The translations under genes were made by a program, and so were the position numbers. The notes under the pieces were generated by a model, which saw nothing but the letters and a program-made list of their open reading frames with translations, ran no database searches and was not told the origin of the DNA. Shown piece by piece: positions 17,233 to 19,058 of a stretch of 32,549 nt of DNA. The stretch's first letter is position 1; each line of letters begins with the position of its first letter. Origin of the DNA: an uncultured Alphaproteobacteria bacterium (GTDB lineage Bacteria > Pseudomonadota > Alphaproteobacteria > RF32 > CAG-239); contig CALXWI010000015.1 of NCBI GenBank assembly GCA_944392325.1, positions 1 through 32,549 on the forward strand, written 5' to 3'.

Positions 17233-17574
17233 ATGCGACAGTTCTATCCGGTTTTGTTATTGTTGATTTCAAATATATTTATGACTTTTGCCTGGTATGG
17301 GCATTTGAAGTTTAAATCAACGGCTTTGTGGGTGGTAATCTTAGCCAGTTGGGGAATCGCTTTCTTGGAATATTGTTTTCAGGTGCCGGCTAATAGAATC
17401 GGGCATGAATATTTTTCTGCTCCGCAGCTCAAAATTATGCAAGAGGCGATTACGATTATGGTCTTCTCAATCTTTTCTATTTTTTATCTTAAAGAAGATT
17501 TGCGCTGGAATGATGCGGTTGGCTTTATTTTTATTTTGCTGGCGGTGGTTTTCGTCTTCAAAAAGTGGGATTAA
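17233..17574 (+). CDS. DUF486 (DMT-like) small membrane protein
   Basis: The 113-residue protein has four hydrophobic helices and the DUF486 pattern: FMTFAWYGHLK near 17-27, SWGIAFLEYCFQVPANRIG near 38-57, QLKIMQEAITIMVFSIFSIFYL near 64-86, and a final helix ending VVFVFKKWD. DUF486 proteins belong to the drug/metabolite transporter clan, but their substrates are not established. Length is standard. TAGGAGAG lies 6 bases before the ATG. It is a single gene between two hairpin terminators (17139-17169 and 17595-17628). Confidence 0.88.
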   Translation: MRQFYPVLLLLISNIFMTFAWYGHLKFKSTALWVVILASWGIAFLEYCFQVPANRIGHEYFSAPQLKIMQEAITIMVFSIFSIFYLKEDLRWNDAVGFIFILLAVVFVFKKWD

Positions 17575-17594
17575 GGTTGATACCATATTGGCGC

Positions 17595-17628
17595 ACACAG
17601 GCTTCCGCCTGTGTTGGATAATTTTTTT
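17595..17628 (+). terminator. Terminator after the DUF486 gene
   Basis: ACACAGGC (17595-17602) and GCCTGTGT (17607-17614) form a perfect 8-bp stem with a TTCC loop, followed after a short gap by seven Ts (17622-17628). Confidence 0.75.
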
Positions 17629-17802: not shown

Positions 17803-17831
17803 TTGATTTTTAACCTTTGTTATGTTAAACT
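17803..17831 (+). promoter_or_regulatory. Candidate promoter for the structured leader
   Basis: TTGATT (17803-17808) and TAAACT (17826-17831) are separated by 17 bases, each with four of six consensus matches. Transcription from about 17838 would give a leader of roughly 240 bases before the Cys-rich protein gene, including all the hairpins between 17844 and 18042. Confidence 0.4.
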
Positions 17832-17843
17832 TATTCCTAGCGG

Positions 17844-18075
17844 GCAAAGTCTGTCCGTCAGGGCGTCACAACCCTTTGCAATATAGTCGTTTTGGTATAA
17901 CGACTTAAAAAAATGATTACCGGTACTTATATGCCTGTATGGGCGGGTGCCGGTATTATAAGAGCTTTGGCTTGAAATTGCCGGGCCGTATATATTGCTA
18001 CGGTTGTGAACACCCGTCCACCCTTTGCTTCAAAGAGTGGACGTTGTTTTTAACAATTAAAACAAAGGGTGTTCA
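17844..18075 (+). promoter_or_regulatory. Long structured 5' leader or small RNA upstream of the Cys-rich secreted protein
   Basis: At least six paired elements occur in a row. They are GCAAAG/CTTTGC (17844-17849 with 17874-17879); AGTCGTT/AACGACT (17885-17891 with 17899-17905); TACCGGTAC/GTGCCGGTA (17918-17926 with 17947-17955); GCCGTA/TACGGT (17985-17990 with 17999-18004); a 12-bp hairpin with one mismatch (18016-18027 with 18031-18042) followed by a T-rich run; and TGAACACCC/GGGTGTTCA (18007-18015 with 18067-18075). The last covers the ribosome-binding region. ACCCTTTG (18020-18027) can pair instead with CAAAGGGT (18063-18070). I do not recognise a known riboswitch class. No gene lies in this gap. 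Confidence 0.5.
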
Positions 18076-18077
18076 AA

Positions 18078-19058
18078 ATGAATAACATTAAATTTTTACT
18101 TTTAGGGACAAGTCTGTCCTTAATCCCAACTTTAACTTTTGCCCAATGCGTTGCGACCCAAGATTGCGAAACTTTGGGTTATACTGAAACCTCTTGCAAC
18201 GGCGGAAAGGGTGTAAAATGCCCCTTTGGTAACAAATGGGCTTGCCTGCCGACTAAAGAATCTGTCTGCAAAGAAGAAGGCTTTACTTTGGCTTGCAATG
18301 AAAATGGACAAATCGGTAGTGGTGATGCTTGTAATGGACTATATAAACAATGTTCTTGCGATTCGAGTTATAAATACATCTGCTCTGGTGAAGGATATTC
18401 AGGAGGTTCCGGTATTGCATGCAATGGTAAATATGCGGCTTGTAATTGTTCCTCAGGCTATGAATGGAAAGATGGAGCTTGTGTTGCTTCCCGACCGGTG
18501 TGTGAAATTGGGGCCCTCTATTATAGTGATAATACTTGCTCAGGTAATTTGGAGAGTAACAAAACGCTACTTGGTGTTGTTATTTATTCTAATGGTTCAT
18601 CAGGAGGTGGTTGGGTGATGACGGTTAATCCGATAGCTACAGGTATAGCGTGGGATAGTGGGTCAAATTATACTACAGGAATTACAGATAAACCTGCCTC
18701 GGCTAGTTGTCCTAATACTCAAAAATTGGTTGATTTAGGTTATCGTTTTGCTGCGGCTAATATGGCCAATAATTATACTGTAGGAGCTCGTAAATGGTGT
18801 TTGCCGGCTAATGATGTGCTTCAAAGTATTAATAATGCAACTAATTTTGCTAAGGTTAATAGAGGGATAACTATAGCAGGGGGAACTCAATTGGGGAATT
18901 TGTCGTCAGGACGAGAAATCGTTTGGTCATCATCAGAAGCTAATTCTGGTAAGGCAAAGGGATTAGATGTATATAATAGTGGTTCTTTTAGTGTGGGCGA
19001 AGTATTGAAGGACTATAATGGAGGTATTGTGTCAGTTCGTCCGGTAACGGAATTTTAG
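18078..19058 (+). CDS. Secreted cysteine-rich protein with DUF1566-like C-terminal domain
   Basis: The 326-residue protein has a Sec signal peptide (MNNIKFLLLGTSLSLIPTLTFA, probable cut before QC). Residues 23-140 are a cysteine-rich stalk with about three degenerate repeats of the type CNG..Y..C.C...Y.W..C, the last two reading GSGDACNGLYKQCSC and GSGIACNGKYAACNC. The C-terminal half (from about CEIGALYYSD) resembles DUF1566/Lcl-type domains, with GVVIYSNGSSGGGWVM, a RKWCLPANDVL segment, IVWSSSE and the closing VSVRPVTEF. It is probably exported and disulfide-bonded, on the cell surface or in the periplasm. The role is unknown. ATG at 18078 was chosen over GTG at 18069 because AAAGGG precedes it by 8 bases. 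The leader is highly structured. Confidence 0.75.
   Translation: MNNIKFLLLGTSLSLIPTLTFAQCVATQDCETLGYTETSCNGGKGVKCPFGNKWACLPTKESVCKEEGFTLACNENGQIGSGDACNGLYKQCSCDSSYKYICSGEGYSGGSGIACNGKYAACNCSSGYEWKDGACVASRPVCEIGALYYSDNTCSGNLESNKTLLGVVIYSNGSSGGGWVMTVNPIATGIAWDSGSNYTTGITDKPASASCPNTQKLVDLGYRFAAANMANNYTVGARKWCLPANDVLQSINNATNFAKVNRGITIAGGTQLGNLSSGREIVWSSSEANSGKAKGLDVYNSGSFSVGEVLKDYNGGIVSVRPVTEF

Follow-up and report, generated by a model that had tools for sequence, protein, structure and literature searches.

The leader and its gene

The DNA analysed here (the window) is a 32,549-nucleotide stretch of a contig from an uncultured gut alphaproteobacterium. It contains a folded RNA leader of about 240 bases on the forward strand (17838-18080), larger than the feature of about 200 bases first noted there, which runs into the start codon of a gene for a Cys-rich secreted mosaic protein. 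Its parts and their coordinates are collected in Table 1. The RNA 5' end is predicted at about 17837-17842, downstream of a promoter-like pair that a consensus promoter scan found too weak to be listed. Farther upstream, the hairpin CACAGGCTTCCGCCTGTG with a T-rich run (17592-17626) follows a DMT-family gene (17233-17574) and is likely an ordinary terminator.

Table 1. Parts of the leader and its gene in the window, from 5' to 3'
Feature	Position	Strand	Remarks
Promoter-like pair TTGATT - 17 nt - TAAACT (extended TG)	17803-17831	+	conserved in the class A alignment
P1 hairpin, GCGGGC (17840-17845)/GTCCGT (17853-17858)	17840-17858	+	97.6% of cells paired
P2 hairpin, AGGG/CCCT; loop holds address a1 (CACAA, 17867-17871)	17860-17875	+	stem invariant in class A
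PK1	17867-17871 (P2 loop) with 18004-18008	+	95% of cells paired (class A)
Address b1 (GCAATATA), 5' strand of PK2	17878-17885	+	complementary to own b'
PK2	17878-17885 with 17991-17998 (P7 loop)	+	
P4 hairpin, GTCGTT/AACGAC	17886-17904	+	99.4% paired in class A; absent in class B
P5 hairpin, ACCGG/CCGGT	17919-17954	+	100% paired; both-side changes in 4/5 pairs
PK3 5' strand (TGGGCGGGTG), SD look-alike	17940-17949	+	complementary to 18011-18020
PK3	17940-17949 (P5 3' side) with 18011-18020	+	
RF02221 (sRNA-Xcc1) match, model positions 1-87 of 87	17941-18027	+	32 bits, E 6e-4
P6 hairpin (GGC/GCC)	17969-17982	+	77% of cells paired; A-rich loop kept in all classes
P7 hairpin, CCGTA/TACGG; loop is address b' (TATATTGC, 17991-17998)	17986-18003	+	stem 92.9% paired
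Address a' (TTGTG)	18004-18008	+	partner a1 (PK1) or, with the next strand, the start region (P8)
Anti-SD strand	18009-18020	+	18011-18020 is the PK3 3' strand; its ACACCC is part of the P8 5' strand
P9 hairpin (18016-18042) and T-rich tract (18044-18051), terminator-like	18016-18051	+	first bases overlap PK3
Ribosome site and a2 (GGGTGTTCAAAA), running into ATG (18078-18080)	18067-18080	+	partner a' and anti-SD strand (P8)
Cys-rich secreted mosaic protein	18078-19058	+	weak C-terminal Lcl_C (DUF1566) match

A check of the sequence from 17838 to 18080 recovered all of the paired elements of the initial annotation where it had placed them. These include the final helix, TGAACACCC (18007-18015) with GGGTGTTCA (18067-18075), which ends 2 bases short of the ATG at 18078, and the hairpin GTCCAC...GTGGAC at 18016-18042 with a T-rich run behind it. 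The reported occurrence of ACCCTTTGC at 17871-17879 is likewise present. A simple terminator scan of the window did not have P9 among its listed terminators. By their coordinates, PK3 and the base of P9 overlap.

The folding energy of the leader is -86.4 kcal/mol, compared with -58.8 +/- 4.6 kcal/mol in dinucleotide shuffles (z = -6.0, with 0 of 200 shuffles as good). The minimum-energy fold is nevertheless an incomplete picture, because the pseudoknots PK1, PK2, and PK3, which are proven by the comparison of copies described below, cannot be represented in such a fold. It merges the strands of PK1 and PK2 into a nested helix and breaks P7; the comparison contradicts this, and we rejected it as the real structure. 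Within P5, the 3' side contains the 5' strand of PK3, and the b' address in the P7 loop is the 3' strand of PK2.

Copies of the leader and their long-range pairings

A DNA search of the same genome (1.53 Mb in 83 contigs) gave 21 matches, 10 of which, the one in the window included, cover most of the query at 86-100% identity. Covariance models built for two classes of leader raised the count to at least 52 copies, 32 with the class A model and 20 with the class B model, the weaker matches to the class B model being class A copies. The classes differ in the helix over the Shine-Dalgarno (SD) sequence, which is ACACCC/GGGTGT or ACATCC/GGATGT in class A and AGCTCC/GGAGCT in class B; a promoter-only class and some others make up the rest. 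In two class A copies, which are located at contig ends, the gene is missing. Of the 50 copies followed by a gene, 48 stand before a member of the paralogous Cys-rich secreted-protein family; of the remaining two, one has a small lipoprotein gene behind it (C40:486) and the other a gene for a small protein of unknown type (C3:17562).

The Cys-rich family has about 60 members in the genome, and 67 distinct starts were recovered from stretches around paralogues. These mosaic proteins have signal peptides that are almost the same in all of them, differ in their Cys-rich modules, and end in a region with weak likeness to Lcl_C/DUF1566. Nine of them, starting with MQKIS or MQKMS, have no RNA leader (L116, L125, L139, L143, L115, L140, L141, L150, and L151) and have a promoter of the TTGAAA/TATAAT type near the ATG. 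The family thus has members outside the control of the leader.

Comparison of the copies proves the three pseudoknots. For both PK1 and PK2, none of 2000 partner permutations reached the observed pairing, either in class A or in class B. In class B, PK2 is 100% paired, with changes on both sides in all 7 pairs. In class A, 189 cells were changed on both sides, compared with 64 in shuffles. Sliding the partners by 1-3 columns abolished the covariation signal in both classes. PK3, tested separately in the two classes, gave 0/5000 permutations in each. It is kept in nearly all of 101 leaders, with one class B copy having five pairs only. Its sequence is nearly invariant in other genera, and its covariation support comes from classes A and B. 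G-U pairs are frequent intermediates in the leader helices, as in P1, where 4 of the 6 pairs have changed on both sides. Covariation, which the initial annotation had named as the check on its proposal, is present, and every long-range helix has pairs that changed on both sides.

The same helices are where the copies differ. The b1 strand has 27 distinct versions among 29 class A copies. Among ten near-identical copies of subclass A1, per-site diversity is 0.37-0.43 in the pseudoknot strands and 0.27 in P1, and at most 0.07 in other regions; the letters of the addresses differ between these copies while the pairing is maintained. The hypervariability of the addresses could have been caused either by selection for distinct specificities or by local homogenisation that spares the long-range helices, and gene conversion of the latter kind was considered as a possible source. 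Over-dispersion of the addresses was tried as proof of diversifying selection and dropped, as distances do not exceed those of column shuffles.

At matching loci of two related species, leader-gene cassettes appear to have been exchanged and few clean orthologues are left. In two such pairs (L250 and L106, L207 and L154) the flanks align at 85-97% and the leader and gene are of different classes, which suggests cassette exchange. One leader, L159 (G000:C5:19098-19289), is chimeric; its 3' half equals a copy on contig C10 (L158) and its 5' half differs. Both PK1 and PK2 are broken in it, and it could be either a recent recombinant between copies or an assembly chimera.

Such exchange could mean that leader and gene form a mobile cassette whose folds serve DNA recombination, of the integron attC type or another single-strand type, instead of regulation. 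The different-class cassettes at matching loci and the chimera with its broken pseudoknots would agree with this, as would the occurrence of the probably related sRNA-Xcc1 upstream of symE in Xanthomonas integron cassettes (PMC12444791). The frequent G-U intermediates, however, fit RNA, and the element stands just before the start codon in the sense direction, with its promoter, SD-complementary strand, and T-rich tract kept. We consider recombination as the purpose of the folds very unlikely.

Spread of the leader and its probable relationship to sRNA-Xcc1

The class A model found the RNA in 121 of the 152 genomes of the family and in 15 of its 16 genera, with per-genome copy counts to be read as "at least". 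An order-wide search added one further genome with the RNA, and an even sampling of the class gave matches in 21 of 385 genomes. At the position of P9, a stable hairpin and T-rich tract occur in all class A copies (100%), in 68% of those of class B, in 97% of those from other genera, and in 95% of those found at the level of the class. The downstream genes elsewhere encode lipoproteins, autotransporter-like and pilin-like proteins, a glycosyltransferase, a methyltransferase, and Cys-rich proteins. Within the family the RNA mostly precedes secreted or surface genes; by a crude hydrophobicity score, 42 of 54 downstream products have a signal-like N-terminus, compared with 23% of background ORFs. 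The initial annotation would have been undermined by a plain repeat lying before unrelated genes. Unrelated genes do follow the leader in other genera, but a plain repeat is ruled out by the covariation, which marks a folded RNA.

A small lipoprotein (..QERNTLRSL..) is found under the leader in several genera (L211, L222, L227, L235, L266, L280, and G000:C40:486-650), with a different PK2 sequence each time. This locus is a candidate for the ancestral, vertically inherited one.

With Rfam at gathering thresholds, there was no match in the window. At relaxed thresholds the window aligns with RF02221 (sRNA-Xcc1) at 32 bits, short of the gathering cutoff of 53 that marks membership; the best copy of the same genome scored 37.3 bits and other loci 31.2-36.3 bits, all below 53. 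A full-length match in the same register also occurs in three loci of other genera and three class-level loci. The architecture of RF02221, an outer stem closing two hairpins, is present over 87 of 87 positions; the outer stem is the covarying PK3, whose 5' strand is the 5' strand of the outer stem in Rfam, and the last hairpin is P7.

For comparison we took above-threshold RF02221 loci from other Proteobacteria. Upstream of the Rfam model these loci have the same P2 hairpin with a1, followed by b1, and their a' and b' are complementary to this upstream region (0/5000 each). The pairing of P2/a1/b1 with a'/b' is shared by both groups, the corresponding figure being 0/2000 in the leaders of the gut Alphaproteobacteria (hereafter gut leaders), and a simple finder located all parts in 18 of 22 RF02221 loci. 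RF02221 thus appears to cover just the 3' half of the element. The published sRNA-Xcc1 is about 88 nt long, its ends having been mapped by RACE (PMC2996969), and these ends would fit a cut at the outer stem.

In the RF02221 loci, a' and b' find a second complement around the ribosome site of the gene that follows (0/5000 each in a test of Watson-Crick runs), and the energy test for a' is weaker (101/5000). The downstream genes are of the Bro-N, KilA-N, Rha, P22_AR_N, and SymE types. Pasteurella phage Pmp1, Escherichia phage Rac-SA53, and Stenotrophomonas phage Smp131 have the above-threshold RNA beside or at annotated anti-repressor genes, and in Pmp1 and Rac-SA53 visual inspection is enough to recognise the a and b sequences around the start site. 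The arrangement follows the scheme known from the C4 antisense RNA of phages P1 and P7 (summarised in PMC5320573). In six loci (L289, L290, L301, L312, L333, and L334) both pseudoknot strands are repeated flanking the SD of an antirepressor-type gene. A phage, integron, or antirepressor/SymE context was seen neither in the window nor in the 48 of 50 copies of its genome that precede Cys-rich secreted proteins, and a BLAST search of the window leader against phages gave no match.

On this comparison the leader is a probable distant relative of sRNA-Xcc1. The idea of a novel RNA raised in the initial annotation survives in so far as the leader is a new variant; it is not unrelated to everything known, being C4-like as well. 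In the openly readable literature we found no paper linking sRNA-Xcc1 to C4.

Start-site contact and proposed control

In the window, GTTGTGAACACCC pairs with the leader's own start region, GGGTGTTCAAAAT, with one mismatch (P8). The match of a' and the anti-SD strand is closer with the leader's own start site than with those of sister copies. This locus-specific fit was reached by 0/5000 permutations in A1, 4/5000 in A2, 7/5000 in the second species, 0/5000 in other genera, and 4/5000 in class-level loci. It was not significant in the five A3 copies, and class B leaders showed no locus-specific a' contact beyond a fixed GCTCC/GGAGC helix. When the test was limited to 8 nt of a', A1 showed no signal, so the A1 result depends on the full strand. 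P8 is missing from some copies in other genera, such as L212 and L276, and the terminator-like hairpin may therefore be their output.

Contact between b' and the ribosome site showed no excess over permutation in the gut leaders, and a duplicated b address at their start sites was sought and not found. With the a' contact kept and the b' contact absent, the gut leaders retain half of the C4-type target contact, and they have turned the outer-stem strand into an anti-SD strand. PK3 and P8 use the same anti-SD bases and are mutually exclusive.

The structured cis-regulatory leader, its terminator-like hairpin, and the sequestered ribosome site of the initial annotation are supported, and its partner switch is not. 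Switching between ACCCTTTG and CAAAGGGT is possible in the window, but it is specific to the A1 subclass and lacking in class B copies and other genera, and we rejected it as a conserved feature. Since P8 covers the ribosome site and the leader is highly stable, an RNA thermometer, or a 5' structure that does no more than stabilise and mask the site, might also be proposed. A thermometer would need neither covarying pseudoknots 100-130 nt apart nor an alternative partner for the anti-SD strand, and we consider this explanation extremely improbable.

We regard the following as established on comparative sequence grounds: the leaders form a large covarying family with three pseudoknots; the family is spread as described above; it has the same architecture as the extended sRNA-Xcc1; and its members show start-site complementarity. 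From these we think it probable that the leader is a 5' leader of the C4-antisense type, distantly related to sRNA-Xcc1, that controls its own downstream gene. The two 5' addresses (a1 and b1) pair with the 3' addresses (a' and b'), and PK3 closes the 3' part. Because a' is shared by a1 and the start site, and the anti-SD strand by PK3 and P8, the alternatives are mutually exclusive. With PK1 and PK3 formed, the start site would be free and translation possible; with P8 formed, it would be blocked. P9, whose base overlaps PK3, could end a share of the transcripts and release an RNA of about 200 nt. Alternatively, processing at the PK3 stem could free the 3' part, in the way that RNase P excises C4 RNA. 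Once released, the RNA could target the gene it came from as well as any other copy with the same address. As addresses differ between nearly all copies, the roughly fifty genes would be under independent control.

The same arrangement can be read as a riboswitch-like leader that senses a ligand or protein, with the pseudoknot body as the aptamer, PK3 as the anti-terminator or anti-sequestor, and P8 and P9 as the OFF platform. Three mutually exclusive strands (the P5 3' side, the anti-SD strand, and the SD) together with a terminator-like hairpin do resemble an expression platform, PK3 and P8 being mutually exclusive conserved helices of the kind that control an SD or a terminator in riboswitches, and the many copies before genes for signal-bearing secreted or surface proteins are what a common signal would suggest. 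This reading leaves unexplained why a1 and the start site carry the same locus-specific complement, and also the duplicated a and b addresses at RF02221 start sites and the phage antirepressor context. We consider a sensing leader, in which the address helices would be ordinary structural helices free to vary, unlikely.

The C4-type reading can be extended to an address-coded antisense network in which each leader silences its own gene and the copies with the same address, as in phage heteroimmunity, with addresses selected to be distinct so that surface proteins are expressed independently or one at a time. We offer this extension as a speculation whose truth we doubt. If it were true, antigen-type diversity would be under a domesticated phage immunity RNA.

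The C4-type reading would assign a C4-like antisense mechanism, acting on the adjacent gene, to an Rfam family that has been an orphan described as acting in trans and whose model appears to represent just the 3' half of the element. The same RNA occurs across an entire order of gut Alphaproteobacteria, and upstream of one family of variable secreted proteins it has multiplied about fifty-fold. Copies that are almost identical, apart mainly from their self-complementary address helices, are a natural data set for RNA specificity, and they also inform how a phage-type silencing RNA may be used in the regulation of surface proteins.

Among known systems, riboswitch expression platforms share with the gut leaders mutually exclusive helices over the SD and a terminator-like hairpin. 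The gut leaders differ in that the alternative partners are locus-specific antisense addresses, and no conserved ligand pocket was identified. In the C4 RNA of phages P1 and P7, two variable addresses are complements of the target gene's ribosome site; specificity is set by a few variable bases, and the antisense unit lies within a longer transcript (PMC5320573). As in C4 (RF01695) and the c4-a1b1 motif, a' in the gut leaders is complementary to the ribosome-site region of the gene, except in class B. The corresponding complementarity of b' is present in the RF02221 loci and not in the gut leaders, which further differ from C4 in having another stem arrangement, in showing one of the two start-site contacts, and in not residing in a phage; the C4 model gave no match in the window or related loci. 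The C4-like Group 1 sRNAs of Acinetobacter baumannii, which are reported to be processed from longer transcripts, resemble the gut leaders in being a phage-type antisense RNA with many copies per bacterial genome and a variable a' region (PMC5320573). Unlike them, the gut leaders head one paralogous family of secreted-protein genes, and sequence models do not link the two.

sRNA-Xcc1 aligns with the gut leaders over its full length in the same register, and its extended loci share P2/a1, b1, a', and b'. The gut leaders differ from it in having P4 and a larger P5 in class A, in being without the b' contact to the ribosome site, and in heading secreted-protein genes, not phage or integron genes, in tens of copies per genome. 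As RF02221 fails at its curated score and C4 at its model, we file the leader as a C4-like new variant and a probable distant relative of sRNA-Xcc1.
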